A DNA stretch of 64,000 nt from Psococerastis gibbosa (lineage: Eukaryota; Arthropoda; Insecta; Psocodea; Psocidae), in NCBI GenBank assembly GCA_963971405.1, contig OZ020485.1:33313921-33377920 (forward strand), in the 5' to 3' direction. Position 1 is the stretch's first letter; the number at the start of each line of letters is the position of its first letter. Both the position numbers and the translations under genes were made by a program. The notes under the pieces were generated by a model that worked only from the letters and a program-made list of their open reading frames with translations, had not been told where the DNA came from and did no database searches. Shown in pieces: positions 2,767 to 62,804 of the stretch.

Positions 2767-3057
2767 TAGTAGTAGTAGTAGTAGTGTTCGTCGGGTTAAC
2801 AACGACTTAGGCCTCATATTTGGGCCCATAGAGTGACTCCGACTTGACTCTCCTATGCCAGCCCATAGGACAGTGGACCTCCTGATTATAGTGGATTCCG
2901 AACCACTTGGAAAACACAGTGAAGTCACACGATTAGTTCGGAGGTGACCAGGACAAGTCCTACCATGTTTCCCTACCGGGACTGTGCACACGACCAAGTT
3001 ATTTGCATCTTTGAACCTGCTCTGGTCCGTTGGATTCAACTTGGTATGGCGGCAGGC
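2767..3057 (-). mobile_element. SINE-3 (probable 5S rRNA-derived), near full length
   Basis: Read on the minus strand it starts GCCTGCCGCCATACC at 3057 and ends in an (ACT)n tail at 2767-2785. It is flanked by an imperfect 15-bp target duplication ending TCGATGCTAG (2752-2766 and 3060-3074, one mismatch). It matches the copy at 8424-8667. The head resembles the 5' end of 5S rRNA (CCATACCA followed by TGAAT at the right spacing). A 156-codon minus-strand frame (2569-3039) runs through it and into the adjacent MITE, and is not a gene. Confidence 0.75.
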
Positions 3058-3074
3058 TTATGGCTCGATGCTAG

Positions 3075-3571: not shown

Positions 3572-3779
3572 AAATAAATAAATAAATAAGCCAACCTAGC
3601 GGAGTTAGGGCCATAACATAAAGCCCTCTCTTCCACTCAACTAAGACCCGGGACCGCCTGCTTTACATGCCCTCCGTAGCATGGTCAAAAAATATAGGAA
3701 GTGTGGGACTCGAACCAACGTCTAACAACCTTTCGGGTGAAAGTCAGAGTCAGTACCACTGCTCTACATGTCCTGACAA
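3572..3779 (-). mobile_element. SINE-1 (tRNA-Glu-derived)
   Basis: On the minus strand this reads as a tRNA-like head with a perfect RNA polymerase III B box, GGTTCGAGTCC (3706-3716). An A-box-like GTAGAGCAGTGGTAC and an anticodon-arm-like GACTTTCACCCGAAAGG lie upstream of it. The anticodon arm resembles tRNA-Glu(UUC). A unique body follows (GGAGGGCATGTAAAGCAGG, then CTAACTCCGCTAGGTTGGCT) and a (TTTA)n tail at 3572-3590. Further copies are at 7765, 20751, 31521 and 61805, with fragments elsewhere. It has no acceptor stem closure, so it is a SINE and not a tRNA gene. Confidence 0.85.
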
Positions 3780-3786
3780 AAATCTG

Positions 3787-7207: not shown

Positions 7208-7210
7208 TAA

Positions 7211-7590
7211 GGTGCCCATTCCATTGACCGGCTAGGGCTATTTCCAACAGCGGTGACGTGGTAGCAGACATTCAAGGCTTAGGTTGCGTTTCCACCGACC
7301 TCGCATTGCAGAATTGACGGAAATGTTAATTTTCCTCTATGCCATAGTTAAAATTGATCAATGATCATACAGTAAAAGCACAAACAAACTAAAATTAAAA
7401 AATGGCGTCATGGGATATGTTAAGTACAAACATTTTAATAGATTTCTATAAAAAGATAAATTCTAATTTCCGTCAATGTCATTTGCATTCTGCAATGCGA
7501 GATCGGTGGAAACGTAACCTAAGTCTTGCATGTCTGCTACCACGTCACTGTTTTTGGAAATAGCCCTAGCCGGTCAATGGAATGGGCGCC
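7211..7590. mobile_element. Foldback MITE (PIF/Harbinger-like), copy 2
   Basis: It starts GGTGCCCATTCCATTGACCG and ends with the complementary CGGTCAATGGAATGGGCGCC. It is flanked by TAA on both sides (7208-7210, 7591-7593). The arms carry GGTGACGTGGTAGCAGACAT and its partner, joined by an AT-rich centre. Arms are only partly complementary inside, so this is a full-length but aged copy. Confidence 0.85.
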
Positions 7591-7764
7591 TAAGCGACAC
7601 TACCCACTAGGCTTTCCTTGTAATGGGCGTCTGGCCTCGGCCTATAAGCAACCGAGGTATTAAATAGGAGTAGGTTGGAGCTAAGGCTCTGACAGAAATG
7701 TTTATTTACATTTTGATACAATACATAAAATCGCTAACACCGATTGGCCACAGGTTACGGAACT

Positions 7765-7976
7765 TGTCAGGACATGTAGAATAGTGGTATGAACTCTGAC
7801 TTTCACCCGAAAGGTTGTTGGTTCGAGTCCTACCCTTCCTACATTTCTGGCCATGCTTCGGAGGGCATGTAAAGCAGGCGGTCCCGGGCTTTCTTAGTTG
7901 AGTGTAAGAGAGGGCTTTATTAGCCTTAACTCCGCTAGGTTGTCTTAGTAATAGATAAACAAGTCCTTATTTATTT
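7765..7976 (+). mobile_element. SINE-1 (tRNA-Glu-derived), full-length copy
   Basis: It has a tRNA-like head with TGTAGAATAGTGGTATGAAC, an anticodon-arm-like GACTTTCACCCGAAAGG and a perfect B box GGTTCGAGTCC (7820-7830). The family body follows (GGAGGGCATGTAAAGCAGG; CTAACTCCGCTAGGTTG) and a T/A-rich tail. Confidence 0.85.
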
Positions 7977-8039: not shown

Positions 8040-9010
8040 TTGATTTTTTTAAACCCCTTTCCAGCTCTGGCCAATCAGGTGTAAGGAGATTCCATGCAAG
8101 CGCAGGCTCCGATTTTCCTCTATGCTACGCTAAGTATGTATGTAGATAAAAATTAAAAAAAATACTTCATTCTTTTCCCGATCACAACATCAACACACAA
8201 AAAACTCTTGTGCTCCAAATTTCGAACCGCAATGACGACTATGAACTATTACTTATCAAATTATTTTCCCTTTGACTGGACGCCATCTAGAAGTCGTGGA
8301 TTTGTCGTAAAAAGTGGTAACTACTATTATCGTAGATAATAATACGGGCTTTCAGTCTGATTTTATTTCATTCCTCTGCGACCAATATTAACTGAGATAT
8401 GAATTATATTAATATAAGGTTTTGCCTGCCGCCATACCAAGTTGAATCCAACGGACCAGAGCAGGTTCAAAGATGCAAATAACTTGGTCGTGTGCACAGT
8501 GCCGGTAGGGAAACATGGTAGGACTTGTCCTGGTCACCTCCGAAGTAATCGTGTGACTTCACTGTGTTTCCCAAGTGGTTCGGAATCCACTATAATCAAG
8601 AGGTCCACTGGAGTCCTATGGGCCCACACCGTGGCCTGGGACTGTGTCAAACCGTACTACTACTACTATATAAGGTTTTAATTAGCCGCTATCTTGGAAC
8701 TTAATAGTGGATCTAGCTGGTTATCGAACTCGATCAAGGCATTTGTAATACAAATGATCATACAAATTTTGTATGATCAATTTTGTGCCAAGTTTCATCA
8801 AAATTGAATAATATTTACGGAAGTCAGTGTTTCCTAATATCGATATAAATACATACATACATTCATAGTATACTTGTATATAAAATTTTGAACGGAGGGC
8901 GATTTTAGGCTCAGTGGACCATGAAATGAAAAGTCGTGAAGAAATTTTCCGGAAGTCGAACATTGGTCGTCGTCTCAATAAGTAGAAGAATACGGTACAG
9001 TACCTACAGT
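8040..9010 (-). mobile_element. Repeat family X, copy interrupted by SINE-3
   Basis: This is the reverse complement of 26893-27690. Matching blocks include the ATGGCGTCCAGTCAAAG-like segment (complement at about 8274-8290), the TTATATCTCAGTTA-like block, and the GACGGCGACCAATGTT-like end (complement near 8960-8980). SINE-3 at 8424-8667 has inserted into it with a target duplication. No protein is recognisable and the class is unknown. Confidence 0.75.
8424..8667 (+). mobile_element. SINE-3 (probable 5S rRNA-derived) with perfect 12-bp TSD
   Basis: This 244-bp element starts GCCTGCCGCCATACCAAG and ends in (ACT)n. It is bracketed by identical ATATAAGGTTTT (8412-8423 and 8668-8679), inside family X. 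From recall of insect 5S rRNA, its first 31 bases agree at about 23 positions: GCC, CCATACCA, G, TGAAT, CA and CGG in register. Further along, AGCAG, ACTTGG and a CCGGTAGGGAAACA-like block recall the 5S internal control region. It would thus be a 5S-headed (SINE3-type) element transcribed by Pol III. The duplication is directly visible; the 5S origin is inference. The 79-codon frame inside it is not a gene. Confidence 0.75.
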
Positions 9011-26892: not shown

Positions 26893-27690
26893 GTTAGGGA
26901 GATTCATCTACCTATTGAGACGGCGACCAATGTTCGAGTTTCGGAAAATTTCCTCACAACTTATCATTTCATGACCCCTGAGACTAAAACCACCCTCCGT
27001 TATATTATGTTATATTATATATACTAGTATATTGTATATATGTATACCGATTTTAGGAAACACTCTAACTTCCGTAAATATTATCCGATTTTGATGAATC
27101 TGAAACTGATTGATTGAAAAAATGTCTTGATTGAGTTCTTTAACCAGTTAGATCCACTATTTAGTTACAGGATGGCGGCCAATTAAAACCTTATATAATT
27201 TATATCTCAGTTAGTATTGATTGCAGAGGAATGAATTAAAATCGGACCAGCAATCACAACCATTTACGACAAATCAACCATTTCAAGATGGCGTCCAGTC
27301 AAAGTTTTTTTTTTAACAAAAAAATTAATCGCATACAAACAATTTAATGAATGTATCCCATTGAACTTTTCAGTCGCCTCTGTAGGTTATTACCCGTGAT
27401 GAGTACGACACGTCTCCGATTGCATGGCGTGTAAAGACTCGCAGAAGTGCAAGCACGTTACCACCTGGCCATCGAAAGTGAAAATAATTTGATAATTAAA
27501 AGTTCATAATATTCGTCAATTTGGAACACAAGAGTGTTTAGTGTGTTGATGTTGTGGTTGGGAAAAGAATGAAGTATTTTTGTATTTTTATCAACATACA
27601 TATAGCATATAGGAAAAGCGGGGTCTGTGCTTGCACGGAATCTCCTTACACCTGATCGGCCAGAGCCGAAAGGGATTTTTACATTTGGCG
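26893..27690 (+). mobile_element. Repeat family X, copy interrupted by SINE-2
   Basis: It matches the reverse complement of 8040-9010. Landmarks are GAGACGGCGACCAATGTTCG at the left, AAGATGGCGTCCAGTCAAAG at about 27282-27301, and CACAAGAGTGTTTAGTGTGT, then CCTGATCGGCCAGAGCCGAA at the right. SINE-2 (27320-27478) splits it between the AGTCAAAG and AAAATAATTTGATAA blocks, which are adjacent in the other copy. A shorter, internally deleted relative lies at 54395-54610. Confidence 0.75.
27320..27478 (-). mobile_element. SINE-2 inserted into family X
   Basis: Read on the minus strand it runs from CACTTTCGATGGCCAGGTGG through GCGAGTCTTTACACGCCATG and CGTGTCGTACTC to ATTCATTAAATTGTTTGTAT and a T-rich (plus-strand) tail boundary. 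The A box is intact. The absence of this block from the other X copy proves it is an insertion. Confidence 0.8.
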
Positions 27691-28529
27691 AACTTTAGCC
27701 CCCAATAGCTACTCTACCAGCTAAACTAAAATAAGCTGAAAAAATCAGACTAGTTAATCTGCGTAAGAAATATAGCATTGCAGCATTGTACATCCACGCG
27801 GCCCTCTCTCAAAAAATAGAATTGACTTGTTGAGACGGACGGTGTATTTACCTAGAGAGATTTGTTGATCTCTTGCGTCAATGTGTTGGCCCGGAAGGTG
27901 AAATGTTTACCAAACATTGTATCGTTCTGTGTTCATAATACTTGAGACATTGACGTACATGTGATTCATCACTTTATGGCCAGTCAGACCTTCCAAAAAG
28001 GCAACAGTTTAGCCAGGGCTTAACTTTCTGCTGTTTTATTCCTTCTAAATTTAAATCTTCTTTATGGAGTAATACTTATAAACATTTCCCTGAAGACAAA
28101 TCAAAAACACATCCAGGGCTTCTGGTGAATCATGGTAAAACTAGGAATTCATATGAAATTCGTTGAAGTTATGAATCGCTGTTCATATTGCCATGATTCG
28201 AATAGAACTGCCTAGCAGCTAGACTTACTATCTGTTGTGGACCTGTGGAAGCTATGCAGTTCACCTTACCGAGACTTTTTTCTTGGGAAGGGCGATTTTT
28301 TTTCAATGCTTTGTTTTTTCCTTTACCTTAAGGAAATGGTACGCTTTACATTTTTCTGTCTGGGGGGCCTGACTACGCCAGTGTGTCCATATTATTCTGG
28401 ATTCCCTTGTCTGGACACAGTTTTAATTTCACTAAATTCTGGCGGCATATTTGGCCTTTTTGGAAATGGTTAGTTCACCAAGTGGTTTTTGGACGTTACT
28501 TGGACACCCGTTGTATTAGATAATTAATC
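27691..28529. other. Intergenic DNA, nothing identified
   Basis: No gene is supported. A 78-codon frame at 28237-28473 has no motif. Confidence 0.3.
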
Positions 28530-29347
28530 CAAATAAAAGAACCTGTCCGAGTTTACTCGAACATGCTTTCCAATTTATCAATTAGTAGATGGAGAAAATG
28601 AGTAATTTCATAGTAAATAATTTTCCTATGGATAAATTTCGGATAACTCGGGGGGGGGGGGGGGGTGTTGTCCACCTTCTGACGTCACTGGAGGTGAGGT
28701 AAATTATAGACCGGTCAGACCAACACATTACCACACAGTAATTATGAGCGTGAATTTTCTATCATTTTTTCAAAAACTTTTTTGCACAAAAAAATTTTTT
28801 TTTGGCAACGCAACCTGTCCGGTTTCGTTACACAATTTAACACCTAAAACATGCCCAAATGTAGAAATAAGCAATAGAAAGGATCCGCAGAAAAATTATT
28901 TTTAGTCATTTTTCATGAAAAATTATTTTTTTTTATTTTTTCACCCCCAGAAGTAAACTATCAAGGGGCAAGCGACGCCCTGCATTTTATCAACACTAAT
29001 AACAACGACAATATGTGTGAATTTAAAAGAAATCGTTGGAGCCGTTTTTGGGAAATAATTTTTTAGACGTTTTTTGAGTATAAAACCCCCCAAATTGAGT
29101 TAGTCCAAAATTAAAAAAAAATGGTCCCGAGGTATGATTTTTGTGAACCTGCAAGCCGAATTTCATCGAAATCGACTGAGTAGTTTGCCCGGAAATCGAC
29201 GCACATACACACAGAACGACATTTCGTAAAAACCACTTTTTTGGGTTCCTGGGACCTGAAAACGAGTAAATCTGTTGTATCTCGGAATCGAAAATTTGGA
29301 CCATCACAAAGCTTTCCTTAATACTACGTATAAATTGAAAAGCAAAA
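28530..29347 (+). mobile_element. Repeat family Y, long copy
   Basis: It aligns over its length with 56615-57475. It begins with AACATGCTTTCCAATTTATC (28561), then a G-run at about 28651-28664 followed by GTCCACCTTCTGACGTCACT. Next come ATCAAGGGGCAAGCGACG and GAGGTATGATTTTTGTGAAC, ending at TACTACGTATAAATTGAAAAG. No coding content is recognised; the 113-codon minus frame within it is incidental. Confidence 0.8.
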
Positions 29348-29577
29348 ATTAAAATTGACGTCAATCAAACAGGTAGCTTTACATACTAGAACTGGCTTAC
29401 CCATCACTGTTTCGGCGCCAGTCACCAGCATTGCAATAATTTATCTTTAAGAATAGAGCAATGGTACTTACCATGAATAGGCACCGCATAGGAAAGAAAG
29501 TGTTAGTAACTTTTTAGCCACATCATCTGCATCAATCGAAAGACATTGGTCTCCACTGCACTGCACCGAACTGAGCT

Positions 29578-31215: not shown

Positions 31216-31520
31216 CCGATCCAGTTAGCTTCTTGCACATATTATAGTAAGCAATGAGAGCTAAAGGTTCATACTGCGTGTGTTGAATGTAGTTACTTCA
31301 TTCTATGGATAAAAAAGAACAGACTCTAACACAGACATTGATATTATCACTTAGATTATATACCTACTATTAAAACGCTCTGATTTTCTACCAAGCAAAA
31401 ATTTTTCAATCATTATCAGTGCTATCTTGTGTGTCTATATAAATATAAAGAGAATCTTAATTTAGCTAAGTGAAACATTCTGCTTCAAATTTAAAATAAA
31501 TAAGTTAATAAATATGGACC

Positions 31521-31722
31521 TTTTTTGTTCTATTACTAAGCCAACCTAGCGGAGTTAGGGGTGTAAAGCCCTCTCTTACACTCAACTAGGAAGGCCCGGG
31601 ACCACCTGCCTTACATGCCCTCCGAAGCATGGCCAGAAAATGTAGCAAGTGTGGGACTCGAACCAACAACCTTTCGGGTGAAAGTCCGAGTCTGTACCAC
31701 TACACTACATGTCTTGACAAAT
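31521..31722 (-). mobile_element. SINE-1 (tRNA-Glu-derived), well preserved
   Basis: On the minus strand: GACATGTAGTGTAGTGGTAC, GACTTTCACCCGAAAGG, and a perfect B box GGTTCGAGTCC (31654-31664). The family body follows (GGAGGGCATGTAAGGCAGG; CTAACTCCGCTAGGTTGGCT; CTTAGTAATAGAA), with a T/A-rich end. This is the most intact of the head regions and best shows the tRNA-Glu-like anticodon arm. Confidence 0.85.
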
Positions 31723-32078
31723 TTAATGTGTAATATTTTCTTTTGTTTACATTGTTATGGATCAACACAGAAATATTATATTCTATTCTTTTGCAAAATT
31801 ACGTTAACGCTCCTGATTAAAGCACACATTCGAATGAATGATATTATTGGTTAGGATTCTGGATTAGGCTTTTTCAAGAAAATATAAAAAAAAAGTAATA
31901 AGAATAGGATTTTGTTGATTTTACTATCTTATACATGCAGATCGGATGTGATCTATGCATTACAAACTGTAATTCACGTTTTAGGGTGGGACCCATCTTC
32001 GCATGAAAAGTCTTGGAAAAGAAAACTGTTGTCCTGAGTATTTTCATGCGATAGTGGGAGTCGGCCTTAGCAACTTAC
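31723..32078. other. AT-rich DNA, nothing identified
   Basis: No gene or repeat end is supported. Confidence 0.3.
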
Positions 32079-35286: not shown

Positions 35287-35672
35287 TGCGCCCATTCCAC
35301 CGACCGGCTAGGGCTATATTTACAAAAACTGTGACGTGGTAGCAGACATTCAAGACTTAGGTGGCGTTTCCACCGACCTCGCATTTCAGAATGCAATTGA
35401 CATTGACGGAAATTATAATTTTTCTTTTTATAGAAATCTATTAAAATGTTTGTACTTAACATATCCCATGACGCCATTTTTTAATTTTAGTTTGATTGTT
35501 TGTGATTTTACTGTATGATCATTGGTCAATTTTAACTATGTCATAGAGGAAAATAAACACTTCCGTCAATTCTGCAATGCTAGGTCGATGGAAACCCCGC
35601 CTACGTCTTGAATGTATGCTACCACGACACTGTTTTTGTAAATAGCCCTAGCCGGTCGGTGGAATGGGCGCC
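35287..35672. mobile_element. Foldback MITE (PIF/Harbinger-like), copy 3
   Basis: It begins TGCGCCCATTCCACCGACCG and ends CGGTCGGTGGAATGGGCGCC. It is flanked by TTA on both sides (35284-35286, 35673-35675). Internal arms include ACTGTGACGTGGTAGCAGAC and its partner near 35611-35640. The central AT-rich part matches copies 1 and 2, but in the opposite orientation. Confidence 0.87.
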
Positions 35673-35675
35673 TTA

Positions 35676-36608
35676 TGCCCGATCTTCTGGTACTTGCAAT
35701 GTAGGCAACTAAGTTCGGAATGAGTTGATGGATTCCGTTATAACTCTGTCCTCCTTTTTGTCTTTACTATTTATCTTATACATAAACAACCTCAAGTTAG
35801 CACTCGAAACGGGGTACACGAAAGGAGCCTCCACGAAGATCGGTTTTATACACGTGGACAAAAACCGATCGGGCGTACCCCGGGCAACGTTAAGTGGAAA
35901 CATCTAGCGGCTAATTCTTTCACCACCGAGAAGAGACCTTCCTCTTCTTTTGTGTATGCACCGACGATGGCGTCGGTTTGGCCGACCCCGGACACGAAAT
36001 AGTATAGCACTCAAAACTCAAATCAATCTGTTGACATGATAACAGTAAAGAAAAAAAAGGGGAATTATATAGTACTTCATTCGGGTATTCACAATACAGA
36101 ATTACGATTCCTCGTGCTACCGCAATTCAGAAAATTGTCTCCCCCCACAAACCCCTACCATGTTTGTCGATCAGAGCTTTGGGGGAAGGGCACATATATA
36201 CACGGGGGAGGGGGACGGACGCATTGGGAAAACAAAATGATTTACGATTTTTTCCGAGGGTCCACATCGGCTCCCGGAATGAAGACTGAGACTTAGGGGA
36301 TTCTGACCCCGTCATCTTTCAATTTCAACTTCAATTAGCTCAATTACGGAGACATCTCGAGTTTCTCCCATCAAATGTTTCAAATTATCAGTTTACTTCC
36401 CTTGCTGTAAAATATACAACATACAGGTATGTTACAGCTGATGGCTTCTTATATAGTCACAAAATAAAATATATATTTTTTCATCAAATTAAATCGTTAA
36501 TGAAACTTATCCTTCGTGGGCACAGGTGCTATAAAATTTTTGCCCGGGTCTACTAGTTAAAATTGTTGTACCACTGTAATTAAAAACTGCATTAGTTTCT
36601 TTCTATCC
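35676..36608. other. Intergenic DNA, partly GC-richer
   Basis: A less AT-rich block at about 35790-36000 (with CGATCGG and CGACGATGGCGTCGG short palindromes) and a G-rich patch near 36179-36220. Frames here have no motif. No gene is supported. Confidence 0.3.
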
Positions 36609-36612
36609 TTAA

Positions 36613-37000
36613 GAGGATATGTTACATAGAAAATTGGCACCCCAAAATTAAATACATTTCATTTTTTATTTAATTAACTCAGCAAGTTATTAAAAATTTG
36701 GCTCATCTACGTTGTAGATGACTATACTTCGAGCATCATATCATCGGGTATTTTTACTTTTCGGTATTGTAGTTCTTCCAAAAATCCCAGAATACGCGTA
36801 ATCTTAGTCCGTTCTGGCATTTATGGAAGAACTAAGGTACCAAAAATTTAATATTTCCTATTACATGATGCATGAAGCAGTCTTGGTACAACTTCCATGA
36901 GCCAAATCTATAAAGACTTGCTTTGTTAATAATATAAAAAAATAAAAAGTCAATAAAAACAACAAATTTTGGGTGCTCATTTTCTACGCAGCATATCCTC
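36613..37000. mobile_element. Foldback MITE with TTAA TSD, copy 1
   Basis: It is flanked by TTAA on both sides (36609-36612, 37001-37004). It starts GAGGATATGTTACATAGAAA and ends with the complementary CTACGCAGCATATCCTC. The arms are long, with TTTTTATTTAATTAACTCAG and a partner TTGTTAATAATATAAAAAAA. Sister copies are at 38038-38403 and 62100-62470. TTAA duplication is the signature of piggyBac-type insertion; the class is inferred, and no transposase is present. Confidence 0.82.
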
Positions 37001-37148
37001 TTAAAGAAACATTCAAATAATGTATAATGTAGTTGTTAGTGTATAACAATAGTACTGTAGATATTACTCAAATAGACTACTGTACCTCTAGTCAAAAATA
37101 AAATTCAATTCAAAACTCTGGTATTATTTTCAAAAACCATGTCCCCAG

Positions 37149-38037: not shown

Positions 38038-38403
38038 GAGTGTACAGCCCGTAGGAAATTGGCAGCCCGAAATTTAATACTTTTCATTTTTTATTTAATT
38101 AACTAAGCATGTTATTAAATATTTGGCTCATCAAAGTTGTAGAAGACTACTTCATGCATCATATTATAAGTTTTATTTATTTTCGAAATTGTTGTTTTTT
38201 CATAAACATGCAAATATTTTATACACAATAACTTTTCACGTATAATCGATTTTATAAAAAAAACTACAATTTCGAAAACTGAAAATACCTTATTATATTA
38301 TGCATGAAGTAGTCTTCTACAACTTTGATGAGCCAAATTTTTAACAACATGCTTTGTTAATTAAATAAAAAATAAAAAGTATTAAATTTTGGGCTTTACA
38401 CTC
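38038..38403. mobile_element. Foldback MITE with TTAA TSD, copy 2 (diverged)
   Basis: It is flanked by TTAA (38034-38037, 38404-38407). It starts GAGTGTACAGCCC and ends GGGCTTTACACTC. The arms share GGCTCATCAAAGTTGTAGAA and TACTTCATGCATCATATTAT and their complements. It keeps the same arm architecture as copies 1 and 3 but with a different central segment. Confidence 0.82.
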
Positions 38404-47589: not shown

Positions 47590-47862
47590 GGCGGCCATTC
47601 CACCGGCGAATTTACTTCATTTTTGATTTTGTCATTGACGTTTGTTTTGTTTTAAGGAGACTATTATGTAGTTACTTAATTCATCTGTTATAAATTAAGT
47701 TATAATATGGTAGCAGACATTATTATTATTATTAAGTCTTTACCTTATTATAACTTAATTTATAATAGATAAGTTAAGTATCTACATAATAGTCTCCTTA
47801 AAATAAAACAACGTCAATGACAAAATCATAAATGAAGTAAATTCGCCGGTGGAATGGCCACC
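47590..47862. mobile_element. Foldback MITE, GGCGGCCATTCCACCGGCG variant
   Basis: It starts GGCGGCCATTCCACCGGCGA and ends TCGCCGGTGGAATGGCCACC. It is flanked by AAA on both sides (47587-47589, 47863-47865). The arms extend over 100 bp (TTAAGGAGACTATTATGTAG and partner CTACATAATAGTCTCCTTAA). The centre again has ATATGGTAGCAGACATT. Its terminal ATTCCACNG block links it to the other TTA-type MITEs. Confidence 0.85.
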
Positions 47863-50348: not shown

Positions 50349-50630
<282 letters not shown>

Positions 50631-54610: not shown

Positions 54611-55984
54611 TATTTTTTTAGGAGATTGAAATGTAACAAATTTTGTACTTTGATATTACAATATATATTTATAATTATTATTTAAAGATTATAAATTATA
54701 TATTTCGTACAATTTTATAATAGCCAATGTTAATGTGGCCCTCTTGGTACCTCTCTCGCTGGGCTTGGGCCTATATTATAATATCATGTCAAACAAACAA
54801 CAAATAAGTTACATGAAAATTGAAAATTATAGTTAATTTAAAAATTCGTAGTATTAAATATTACAATTTAAGTTAGACTCAAAACTATTACAAGTTAGCG
54901 AACATTCAACATAGTCTCCCTGTACTCTTTTACAAGCATAAGCATGTATCGTAAAGGTGTGTGTAAGTATAAAATTAAATGAGATTCAGTTATTAGTGTA
55001 ACTGTAAGATATATGGTTCATGTATACGTGAACTTCAGGTGGCAGGGTTACTTCCGCTCAGCTCTTCTTATTATTTTGCATTAAATATTTTAATGTACCA
55101 TCAGAAATGCCTCTAATTCTCTATGCATTGAGAAAAAGCAAGGGCTTTGATTCCCAGTGAATCAACAGAATTAGAGGGAAAAATAGTTAACGCGCACACT
55201 GGAAGTCACTCCAGTTTTTGTTCTAAGAACGAGACTTGAAATCTCGGTGATAGAATAAGAAGACCAAATTTACAACATTAATATCCCATAAAATCAACCT
55301 CAACTAGGAATAACACGGTTGAAATATTTTAATTTACAAAAACTGATAGCCTCATGCTAAGTTGGAGACTGTGGCTCTTAATAAGGAAGGAACAGAGGAA
55401 TCATTTCGAAACACCAGAATCCCAATAAGGATCTTTCCACCCAAAAATGATGGATTACATGTATCCCTCTGCCCCCCAGACCCCCGCAACGCGCTCTGCC
55501 CTAAGGGTACGGCCATGAGGGCGCCATTACACAAACTGGTCATGGCTTACCATTACAATATTATAATATTGTAACATCTTAAACGAGTTAGTTTCTAATG
55601 TGCTACCCAGTGTTTATCTGAATATGCATAGTCAGTGTTCTAAATGCTACACATGCGGTAGAAGCTGCGGTTAGGGGCAATACTGTAGAATGGGACAGGA
55701 CGCAGGACAACGATTTTCACTGCGGGACAGAAGAAATTAAAAAAATAGGGGGAATGAATAACCATTCCAACGTATTGTATTGGTGAAAGGAAAAAATATC
55801 CTGGCATAACCAGATTGGCCCAAAAAAATTTCCCCAATTATCTTTGTTACGGCAGAGAGGCTGTTTTTCATGAGCTGGGATGACGAGTGACCAAGTCCAG
55901 GGCTTTCAGGTATTAGGTACGATACACAGTAGGTAGCCTACTACGAGTCCATCATAAACTGTAAATCATGAGAAAACGAGCGTG
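54611..55984. other. Intron DNA, nothing identified
   Basis: AT-rich. Opposite-strand frames at 55352-55574 overlap each other, and neither has a motif. No exon is supported. Confidence 0.3.
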
Positions 55985-56088
55985 ACGAGTCCTGGTCACC
56001 TCCGAATTAATTGTGTGACTTTACTACTTGTATATTCCCCAAGTGGTTCGGAATCCACTATAATCAGGAGGTCCGGCCTGTCAGTCAA
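55985..56088 (+). mobile_element. SINE-3 internal/3' fragment
   Basis: It contains GAGTCCTGGTCACCTCCGAA, TTGTGTGACTTTACT, CCCCAAGTGGTTCGGAATCC and ACTATAATCAGGAGGTCC, as in the complete copies. The 5S-like head is missing and a short insertion lies near 56020-56035. Confidence 0.65.
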
Positions 56089-56614
56089 CTCCCCTTCTCT
56101 CCGAAGTGAAGGAGTCTGCCCTTATAGGGTTATCGTTATTACTAAACAGACTCACTCCCCCCCCCCCAGGCTGACAGCCAGTGACAGGGTTGCATACAGC
56201 TGAAAGCAGGCGTTAGAAAACAAAAACAAAAAAACGTCATGAGAAAAAATAAATGATTAGTCGTATAAAATAAAATGTATTATCATACTACAAGACTACA
56301 ACTAAAAAGATTCGTATGTTACAGTACTAGTGATAGTGCAGGCATTAGGGGGTCCTTAGAAGGGGCAATTCACCCCTTTCCCAAGTTTAAAAAAAAAAAA
56401 ATATTTTGAAGACCCATCCCGCTTCCTATTCCGCGTTCATGCATTTTGCTTTTGCTACGGGACGGGACTAGCGAAAAAGTGCGGGACGCGGGACGAAAAC
56501 GAGGTTCATTCCCTTCCTATATTGTCTTGCGGGCATCTCTAGCTGTTGTTCAGTTTGATTTTACGCTCACAACCCATAAATCAGCAAGAACCCAAAATTT
56601 CATAATTCTAATTC
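56089..56614. other. Intron DNA, nothing identified
   Basis: A C-run at about 56157-56167 and an A-run near 56389-56400. No gene or repeat end is supported. Confidence 0.3.
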
Positions 56615-57475
56615 ATAGAAAAGAACCGGTCCGAGTTCACTTGAACATGCTTTCCAATTTATCAAAATTATTAGATAGAGAAAATTAGTAATTTTATGGC
56701 AAATATTTTTCCTATGGTTAAATTTCCGATATCCGAAATTCCGGGGGGGGGGGGCGGTTGTCCACCTGACGTCACTGGAAGTGAGGTAAATTCTCGATAG
56801 GTCAAACAAACACATTAATTACCACACAGCAGTAATGGCAGGGCATGCAATGCATTTGAGCGCGAATTTTCTATCATTTTTTTCAAAAAATAATTTTTTG
56901 GGCAAAACCAAATATTTTTTTGGGAAAGCAACCTATCCGGTTTCGTTACTCAATATAACACCTAAAACATGCTTGAAGGTAGAAATCATCGATAGAAAGG
57001 TTTCGCATTTTTTAGTCATTTTTTCATTAAAATTTAGTTATTTTTATTTTTTTACCCCCAGAAGCAAATTATCAAGGGGCAAGCGACCCCCCGCATTTTG
57101 TCAACATTAATAACGACTGCAATCTACGAGAATTTAAAATAAATCGTTGGAGCCGTTTTTGAGAAATAATTGTTTTAGACGTTTTTTTGGAGTTTTTTGA
57201 AAATAAAACCCCCCCAAATTGAGTTAGCCCAAAAAAAAAAAATGGTCCCGAGGTATGATTTTTGTGAACCTACATGCCAAATTTCACTCAAATCCACCGA
57301 GTAGTTTGCCCGGAAATCGACGAACAGACAGACCGCCCGATAGACAGACATTTTGTAAAAACCACTTTTTTGGGTTCCTGGGACCTCAAAACGTGTAAAT
57401 CCGTTGAAATCTCGGAATCGAAAATTTCAACCATCACAAAGCTTTCCTTATACTACGTATAAATTGGAAAGCAAT
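56615..57475 (+). mobile_element. Repeat family Y, long copy in the Antp intron
   Basis: It matches 28530-29347 along its length: AACATGCTTTCCAATTTATC, a G-run at about 56741-56751 then GTTGTCCACCTGACGTCACT, ATCAAGGGGCAAGCGACC, and the common right end TACTACGTATAAATTGGAAAG. It lies in the same orientation as the other two copies. Short open frames in it are incidental. Confidence 0.8.
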
Positions 57476-58354
57476 AAAAACTTCTAAGGTTAAACCTGAA
57501 AAAAAGACATAAGAAGTTAGCAAATAGCAATGTGGAATAGTAGTACTGTAATGTAATGAATAGTTAAGAGACTTTTTGATGTATTCATCTGTCAATATGG
57601 AAGAGGGGGGTCAAATTTCAGCGTTAGCTAAAGTGTAATTAAGTTGTGACTTAACGAGGGTTTTTGGTGTTTGTTTTGAAGTTACAGGCGTCTTCTCATA
57701 AATTTCTTATCGTTAATGTAATCGGTGCCAGACATGAAAACAGCGTCTTGTCGTTTATAAACGCTTCATTTTTTATTTATTAAGAATTTTAATTGATGTC
57801 TACGAATGAAGCGAACTGAACTTTCCACGAGAAACTGTGAGCAGTCAATGTACTGTATTTGTCAATGAATATGATTGTGAAGGCTTTATTGCACAACATA
57901 TACAAAAAATAATAATTGAGTGAACAATTCGAGGTGGTCAACTGTGTTGCTGAACGTTGTTTCTGCAGTACACGTACATCGCTATAAAAAACCTGCAGAA
58001 ACGGTAGGGACCTCAATTTTTCAAGTAATTGTTGGTTCAATGCAAGAGTAAAATATAAATTGTAAATTAGAAAAGGCATTTTCCATAAAAATTTACAAGA
58101 AAACACTCAGGAAGACAATTTATTGGAACATTTCTCCAGTACAGCACTCACATGACTGTCTTAATTGTAGGTAAGACTCCACGATAACTTGCCCATTACT
58201 GCACAGCTGATATACAATTGATTCCTGAATTAAAGAATGCTTTAGAACAGACACTTGCTGCCAACCAATCGCTGAGATTGTGACCTCAGAAGAAGAATGG
58301 AGGCTTCATTCTTTAAAGTATATTTTTTTGGTTTTTCAGGGCAGGAAAATACAA
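57476..58354. other. Intron DNA, nothing identified
   Basis: AT-rich. The minus-strand frame at 57789-58106 has no motif. Confidence 0.3.
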
Positions 58355-61465: not shown

Positions 61466-61804
61466 GATTAAAAATAACAGGACGTTGTTGAAAAATAGTA
61501 GAATCCGGGATGATAGACCGTGGTCGTTCTGCGTGAAAAAGATTCATCATCATCTGAGGTAGACGAAACGAAGTACGCTTTCCGAATGACCACGGCCGAT
61601 CATACCGGATTCTACTGCTTCGCCTCGTAACTCCACCCGTGAAAGTCTTTGAAATTATATAGCCCGTTGTTCAAAAAATATAGAAAAACTAAATCCCCTA
61701 CTTCAAGTGCCTAGTTGCTCTGATAAAATGAATACTCCTCTAGTCCATTGCTATTTATCTGGTGGACAGGAATTTTTTTAAATAAATAAGTATTGACACA
61801 CATT
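61466..61804. other. Intron DNA, nothing identified
   Basis: A small inverted similarity exists: AATCCGGGATGATAGACCGT (61502) against the right-hand GGCCGATCATACCGGATTCT (61585). No gene is supported. Confidence 0.35.
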
Positions 61805-62000
61805 TTGTACCATTACTAAGAAAATCTAGCGGAGTTAGGGCTATAAAGCCCTCTCTTACACTCAACTAGGACGTCCCGGCACCGCCTGCTTTACATGCCC
61901 TCAGAAGCATGATCAGAAAATGTGACAAGCATGTGACTCGAAACAACAACCTTTCGGGTGAAAGTCGGTGCCTGTACCACTTCTCTACATGTCCTGTCCT
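61805..62000 (-). mobile_element. SINE-1, copy with mutated B box
   Basis: Minus-strand reading: GACATGTAGAGAAGTGGTAC, GACTTTCACCCGAAAGG, then TGTTTCGAGTCAC in place of the perfect B box. The family body follows (AGGGCATGTAAAGCAGGCGG; CTAACTCCGCTAGATTTTCT). T/A-rich sequence follows at the 3' end. Confidence 0.8.
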
Positions 62001-62099
62001 GACCCTTTCAGGGGAGTAGCTAAACTTTTACGATTCGATATGATACACTCGAAGTAGCAGGGTTCAAATTTTCTCTCAGAACGGAAAAAACAGGCTTAA

Positions 62100-62470
62100 G
62101 AGGACATGCTACGTAGAAAATGAGCACCCCAAAATTTGTTGTTTTTATGGACTTTTTATTTTTTATTTAATTAACAAAGCAAGTCCATAAAGATTTGGCT
62201 CAAGGAAGTTGTTGAAGACTACTTCGTGCATCATATAATTGGGTATTTTTACTTCCAAAAATCCCAGAATACGCATAATTTATTTATGGTATTTATGAAA
62301 GAGCTAAGGCACCAAAAATCTAATATTTCCTATTACATGATGCATGAAGCAGTTTTCTACAACTTCCATGAGCCAAATTTGTAATGACTTGCTTTGTTAA
62401 TTAAATAAAAAATAAAAGTAAATAAAAACAACAAATTTTGGGGTGCTCATTTTCTACGTAGCATGTCCTC
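62100..62470. mobile_element. Foldback MITE with TTAA TSD, copy 3
   Basis: It is flanked by TTAA (62096-62099, 62471-62474). It starts GAGGACATGCTACGTAGAAA and ends TTTCTACGTAGCATGTCCTC, a perfect 20-base terminal match. Arms continue through GAGCACCCCAAAATTTGTTG and its complement. This is the least diverged of the three copies and defines the family ends best. Confidence 0.9.
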
Positions 62471-62804
62471 TTAAAGAGGGGTGTTTTGGTATGCAGTAAC
62501 TCATTTAGTGGCATGGTCTGTTTTTCACATTAGTGTTTTTGGGGATACCAGTATTTTTTAAAGTTTTTTTTTTGTTTCCTCAGCGAAATGGTTACCCAAC
62601 TTAAAATAGGAATACACATAACGAATGCGTTACCAACGTAGGGGTTGACTTTATAAACGAATCCGAATTAGTATACACATTTGTTATATGATGTATTTCT
62701 TTGGTAAGCTGAGTAAAATATAAAGTAACAATTGTTATACTATGGAGAAACGTTCGAATTATACACACATGCTGGAAAATTTGTCACTGGAGCAAATAGG
62801 CTTG

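Follow-up and report, generated by a model that had tools for sequence, protein, structure and literature searches.

The element at positions 8424-8667 of the window, by which we mean the whole 64,000-nucleotide stretch of Psococerastis gibbosa DNA under analysis, is one copy of an abundant, recently active retroposon family. The head of this family originates from 5S rRNA and its tail resembles the 3' end of a LINE, its copies were inserted with target-site duplications, and its spread is recent. These features are very probably explained together by a SINE with a shrunken 5S head, a central domain shared with a second family, and a LINE-derived (ACT)n tail, which would be mobilised by LINE machinery.

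The copy at 8424-8667 (plus strand; hereafter copy 1) is a full-length, 244-bp element of a short-tail type, is 97.1% identical to the family consensus, and ends in T(ACT)n at 8655-8667. It is framed by two identical 12-bp target-site duplications, ATATAAGGTTTT, at 8412-8423 and 8668-8679 of the plus strand, and nowhere else in the window is a 12-mer repeated 256 bases further on. When the flanks of copy 1 were joined, they aligned with a paralogue of the surrounding sequence, a repeat at about 27130-27240 on the minus strand in which ATATAAGGTTTT occurs once and the SINE is missing; the alignment has a 6-base gap immediately upstream. This empty site shows that copy 1 was inserted precisely. 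The first-pass annotation had proposed a SINE at this position, framed by a perfect target duplication of 12 bp, and both its exact bounds and the empty paralogous site within the window bear this out.

Using copy 1 as a query against the genome (409,210,807 bases, 68 contigs), we obtained 1699 first-look candidates, of which 40 were scored; 39 of these were read with their flanks as a short-type sample, the window's own copy being left out. The copies in this sample, which is biased in that it holds the best-scoring copies only, were 98-100% identical to their consensus, with a mean pairwise difference of 0.45%, and 11 of the 39 equalled the consensus over 240 bases. Flanking repeats scoring at least 9 were found around 33 of the 39 short-type copies, compared to 5 of 1482 mismatched flank pairs, with a few of the duplications (L032 and L087, for example) oddly placed. 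The same score was reached by 27 of 29 copies of a long-tail type, a count that has no control of its own. Duplication length varied from 9 to 17 bp. Such close agreement with the consensus (98-100% in the best copies), together with duplications around 33 of 39, leads us to regard the family as young, and the occurrence of near-identical copies with different duplications on many contigs shows recent activity.

All three element types considered here are shorter than 500 bp (244, 291, and about 370 bp) and present in many copies (1699, 895, and 1934 first-look candidates, 40 scored for each), as is usual for SINEs. A further 12 copies or fragments lay in the 194 kb of flanks around 65 fetched loci. 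Rough extrapolation from these flanks suggests a genome total of ~25,000 copies and fragments, an estimate that rests on a small count, includes some short fragments and one possible LINE tail (L107), and draws on SINE flanks, which are a non-random part of the genome. Across the 60 copies of both tail types with such flanking repeats, insertion sites leaned towards T|TA: 36 have T at -1, 39 have T at 0, and 36 have A at +1. Overlap between tail and duplication may contribute to this preference. Some copies were truncated at the 5' end, including L137, L143, and the element at 55977-56236 of the window.

A second full-length copy, of the long-tail type and 291 bp in length, lies at 2767-3057 on the minus strand (copy 2), as delimited by alignment within the window and by the long-type consensus. 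Its duplications, ATGGYTCGATGCTA, read from the sequence on the minus strand, lie at 2752-2765 on the 3' side and at 3060-3073 on the 5' side. A copy with its own near-perfect duplication of 15 bp had been annotated here; the copy and the duplication stand, and the length is revised to 14 bp with one mismatch. Copies 1 and 2 are 96.5% identical over 200 bases. The long-type consensus, built from 29 loci (895 first-look candidates, 40 scored) and also 291 bp long, is identical to the short-type consensus over nt 1-186 save nt 60, and the two diverge thereafter. Directly 3' of the central domain, the long type carries a hairpin that has no counterpart in the short type (2847-2874 on the minus strand in copy 2), with a perfect 11-bp stem in the consensus and one mismatch in copy 2. 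The tails of the young short and long types may have been exchanged or reshaped. Copies 1 and 2, which have different tail types and lie 5.4 kb apart, share the same four head differences from both consensuses, T4, A28, A50, and A55 (8424-8480 and 3057-3001); T4 alone was seen in L030 and A50 alone in L028. The four changes may have spread between the two copies by local gene conversion, or may mark a minor subfamily.

The window contains a third relative, absent from the first-pass annotation, at 55977-56236 on the plus strand, of which only the middle is common with copy 1. It is a 5'-truncated copy of a second, more diverged family with the same central domain, another 3' body, and an A-rich tail, as judged by alignments and consensus, and it is flanked by 11-bp duplications on the plus strand, TCATGAGAAAA, read from the sequence at 55966-55976 and 56237-56247. 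A genome search with this copy gave 1934 first-look candidates, and the 39 other relatives among the 40 scored were 78-87% identical to it. The consensus of 29 loci is about 370 bp long and comprises the same type of head, a 44-bp spacer, the same central domain (8527-8609, plus strand, in copy 1, by window and consensus alignments), a different 3' body, and an A-rich tail. Between the two families the head is identical at 82 of 101 positions (81%) and the central part at 84 of 89 (94%), a difference with a Fisher p of 0.008 for a boundary set after the alignment was seen.

Several other repeats are interspersed with these elements. Long palindromic foldback (MITE-like) repeats occur at 2340-2736, 7210-7591, 35288-35671, 36606-37007, 38064-38395, 47590-47862, and 62096-62474; some are mutually related, and copy 2 lies 30 bp from one of them. 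A repeat of ~190 bp is present at 3587-3780, 7761-7975, 31507-31723, and 61803-61996, and because ARAGORN called a tRNA-Gly in one of its copies (3695-3774, minus strand), it is possibly a tRNA-derived SINE. A further repeat, up to 890 bp long and 81-88% identical between copies, occupies 28520-29348, 56602-57477, and 1-257. The window also holds a homeodomain exon (PF00046) at 50349-50630 on the minus strand, which we take to be Antennapedia-like.

We measured the head against the genome's own 5S genes, which comprise arrays on contig C15 and dispersed copies, with the array gene at C15:1585664 as the reference. These genes vary: the commonest collected form starts GTCAACGACC and the array form GCCAACGGCC. 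Of the first 31 positions of the short-type consensus, 24 agree in register with the array gene, a value reached by none of 200,000 shuffles; this stretch lies at 8424-8454 (plus strand) in copy 1. In the second family the agreement is closer, with the 29-locus consensus identical to the array gene over nt 1-23 and matching it at 26 of the first 28 positions. Single second-family copies with a complete 5' end (n = 17, the other 12 of the 29 loci being left out because their alignments fell short of the start) equalled 5S at 18-22 of 23 positions, and another five, met with by chance in fetched flanks, scored 19, 19, 21, 11, and 19 of 23, the 11 coming from a register-shifted copy. With a model made from own and further 5S genes, nhmmer aligned nt 1-28 of the second family (E 3.6e-6) and nt 8-32 of the short type (E 9.2e-4), both E-values applying to a search of these two sequences alone. 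The Rfam 5S model at E<=10 matched neither the window element nor any of 20 second-family loci, of which 11 include the whole 5' start; these loci were scanned together as 64.5 kb.

Past nt 31 of the short consensus we found no 5S likeness: shuffles of nt 32-112 that left nt 1-31 untouched did as well in 1405 of 3000 cases. From nt 29 on, the heads resemble 5S no better than shuffled sequence does, and the 5S similarity ends near nt 28. A weak resemblance of nt 32-112 to the 5S reverse complement (14 of 3000 shuffles as good; 109 and 144 of 2000 under local scoring) may come partly from the head's internal pairing. By alignment, the 5' end of the element derives from 5S rRNA, as it does in SINE3 elements. 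The motif CCATACCA, previously noted in the head, is in register with the genome's own 5S; the TGAAT said to follow it reads TGAAC in the own 5S. More broadly, the first-pass annotation had staked the 5S reading on a consensus of many copies, and that consensus still aligns to the species' own 5S and yields no match to tRNA or 7SL. The claim of a 5S-derived head stands for about nt 1-28 and perhaps a closing helix, whereas the 5S internal promoter region is unrecognisable.

Besides the arrays on C15, single 5S genes with T-runs in their downstream flanks are dispersed over many contigs (L037-L054), at about 502-619 of these loci and at 281-398 in L045. We considered whether the dispersed copies form a SINE with an intact 5S sequence; in the 18 that we read, the T-run-bearing sequence downstream mostly differs from copy to copy, as would befit 5S genes scattered through the genome. 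Exceptions are L037 and L038, which have the same downstream flank, and L042, L051, L052, and L054, which have a common upstream sequence.

A second trace of 5S may be preserved further along the head. The first seven nucleotides of the second-family head (nt 1-7) can pair without a mismatch with nt 77-83, which equal the 5S 3' end motif CGTTGGC, a 7-mer present in 88 of 20,000 shuffles. The young family keeps this stem, with A-T replaced by G-C on both sides at two pairs; the 3' arm lies at 8500-8506 (plus strand) in copy 1. In an alignment of 87 copies with 46 distinct heads, helix I is paired in 273 of 322 cells, with two compensatory pairs, compared to 222 cells and no compensatory pairs in the best of the other registers (tested to 101); one-off registers had one such pair each. 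RNAalifold on the 46 heads likewise paired the ends. Pair 7-77 fails across the young family, and nt 4 is also unpaired in copy 1. Folded alone, the young consensus head forms helix I and the second-family consensus head does not, and the folding of the short consensus as a whole is only a little more stable than that of shuffles (z -1.96, 5/200). Taken together, the pairing data suggest that the terminal 5S helix (helix I) has probably been kept. We infer that the head is a shrunken 5S RNA, which would retain the 5' end and probably the closing helix, its middle having been replaced or decayed.

How this head relates to transcription depends on the 5S control region. With box A, IE, and C coordinates that we take to be those of the Xenopus 5S gene, the three boxes and the whole 48-nt block fell within the shuffle range in both families, in what is a test of similarity and not of function. 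Because the boxes are not recognised by similarity, we do not claim strict SINE3 membership; from its sequence, the element would work like a SINE3. One reading, to which we give somewhat less than an even chance, is that the head is a normal but decayed SINE3-type 5S head whose boxes A, IE, and C have diverged or shifted and still drive type-1 pol III transcription. It is consistent with a box-C-like colinear stretch of the second family (ACTTGG..GTG.AC..CG.TTGG..GGAACA) that aligns with the 5S box C region, yet the score of this stretch, 22 against a shuffle mean of 17.9, was reached by 738 of 5000 shuffles, no box in either family rises above its shuffles, and the families agree well with the own 5S upstream of the boxes and not inside them. 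A more tentative idea, which we consider rather unlikely, is that selection has kept the 5S part as an RNA module and not as a promoter, with compensatory changes maintaining the 5' end and its closing helix and the 5S control region having been replaced.

Two readings would remove the 5S head or retroposition altogether. That the element is a tRNA-headed SINE whose 5S-like start arose by chance draws on GGTTCAAAGCT, which at nt 41-51 of the short consensus resembles a B box well, and on GGTTCGGAATCC in the central domain. A tRNA-like head with A and B boxes, which marks tRNA-derived SINE2 elements, was nonetheless found by none of three approaches: ARAGORN on the three consensuses called no tRNA at the 90% threshold, and its single call at 70% and five calls at 50% had low scores throughout; the best A and B box pairs were equalled in 364 and 337 of 500 shuffles; and the Rfam tRNA model gave no match to the element. 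The 23/23 match of the second-family consensus to the own 5S gene largely refutes this reading, which we hold to be highly improbable. A 7SL (SINE1) head, or a head from another Rfam family, likewise had no Rfam match. Spread by a DNA transposon or by segmental duplication might be suspected from the palindromic foldback elements nearby, one of them adjoining copy 2; against duplications that vary from 9 to 17 bp, a simple-repeat 3' end, 5'-truncated copies, and a LINE-matching tail, it is scarcely conceivable.

Tail-like pieces without a SINE body were present in the fetched flanks. A genome search with the tail piece of L122 brought out a second lineage, with 81 candidates at first look; 40 were scored, including L122 itself, and six others were read. 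Four of them (L145, L148, L149, and L150) have in common a coding-type upstream sequence of varying length, followed by a stop, a ~60-base 3'UTR, and (CTA)n, and L146 and L147 have another upstream sequence common to both. L148 carries an RNase H domain (RNase_H, 3.6e-7), and L145 has a zf-RVT-like stretch (4.3e-5) and a DUF2695 match (1.1e-4), both below Pfam's own cut-off. Because the stretch of L148 that matches the zf-RVT-like part of L145 sits in another frame, the L148 copy is broken. The 2.1 kb upstream of L148 held a 134-aa stretch without a Pfam match, which we assume to be LINE sequence from the way it reads; this copy looks truncated. In L145, a short-type SINE end (1-118) lies ~150 bases upstream of the stretch common with L148 (269-671).

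Compared with this LINE 3'UTR, the consensus tails of the SINE scored 30 for the short type and 39 for the long type, each unmatched in 5000 shuffles, the resembling stretch in copy 1 being 8617-8647 (plus strand). The A-rich tail of the second family gave no match to the same 3'UTR (3637 of 5000 shuffles as good). Since both the short and the long tails match it, the young family is likely to be helped by the (ACT)n LINE lineage, and by sequence comparison the RNase H-bearing (ACT)n LINE is its likely partner.

In the mechanism that we propose, the SINE RNA, presumably synthesised by RNA polymerase III, would start with the shrunken 5S sequence (about nt 1-28 and probably the closing strand of helix I), continue through the central domain common to the sister family, and end in a 3' tail from the RNase H-bearing (ACT)n LINE. 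To judge from the shared 3' ends, the LINE reverse transcriptase would recognise the LINE-like tail. The enzyme would then nick the target, often at T|TA, and prime on the (ACU)n end, and the copy would be inserted with the 9-17-bp duplication that is observed. The more diverged family differs in carrying an unrelated A-rich 3' end.

5S-headed insect SINEs already in print, as far as the portions of the reports available to us describe them, include SINE3-1_TC of Tribolium, HaSE3, PxSE4 and PxSE5, CsSE2, and LaSE2 (PMC3272025; PMC8010984). The high-copy SINE-like sequences of planthoppers (RPSlS) are described in accessible parts of another report as carrying the SINE3-1_TC motif, which also occurs in a 300-nt stretch of the iridovirus IIV-6 (PMC6401454). 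The suggestion that the family could be undescribed needs correcting as to kind, 5S-headed insect SINEs being known from these published SINE3-1_TC, HaSE3, PxSE4/5, and planthopper elements (PMC3272025; PMC8010984; PMC6401454).

Like the insect SINE3 elements in the sections consulted, the element has a 5S-derived start, a central body, and a short-repeat tail, and like HaSE3 and PxSE5 it has a LINE-related 3' end (PMC8010984; PMC3272025). PxSE4 and PxSE5, described as having ~250 bp of common 5' sequence and different 3' ends (PMC8010984), resemble our short and long types in this respect. By description, boxes A, IE, and C are reported for HaSE3, PxSE4, and PxSE5, unlike the element here (PMC8010984; PMC3272025), and lepidopteran SINE3 elements, from an excerpted account, have a conserved promoter and a divergent upstream part, the reverse of what we find (PMC10886601). 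The likeness to the RPSlS elements, again by description in the available text, is that of a high-copy insect SINE with the SINE3-1_TC motif (PMC6401454). Deu-, V-, Ceph-, Inv-, and other domain SINEs likewise have a central domain common to families with different tails, a parallel drawn without alignment of the domain sequences. Pattern scans of viral contigs with parts of the element gave no match, which says nothing on IIV-6. Contig pattern scans at first gave none either, and a 17-letter pattern then gave 12 bacterial or archaeal matches (tens being expected by chance), none aligning much beyond the pattern; a full-text literature search with sequence words of the element returned one unrelated mouse paper only. 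Set apart from published SINE3 elements by their descriptions, the family looks like an undescribed variant and not a new category.

Near-identical copies with clean duplications are possible markers of insertion within the species. If the 5S part is indeed kept as an RNA module, a new signal, inside or upstream of the element, would drive transcription, and the 5S-like end would have another use, for example in stabilising the RNA, in recruiting 5S-binding proteins, or in gaining the LINE machinery. The same genome supplies intact 5S genes, a diverged sister family, two tail types, and a likely partner LINE, and with these pieces in one genome two questions can be put to the test: how much of 5S a SINE has to retain, and which part, and how SINEs come to exchange one LINE tail for another.
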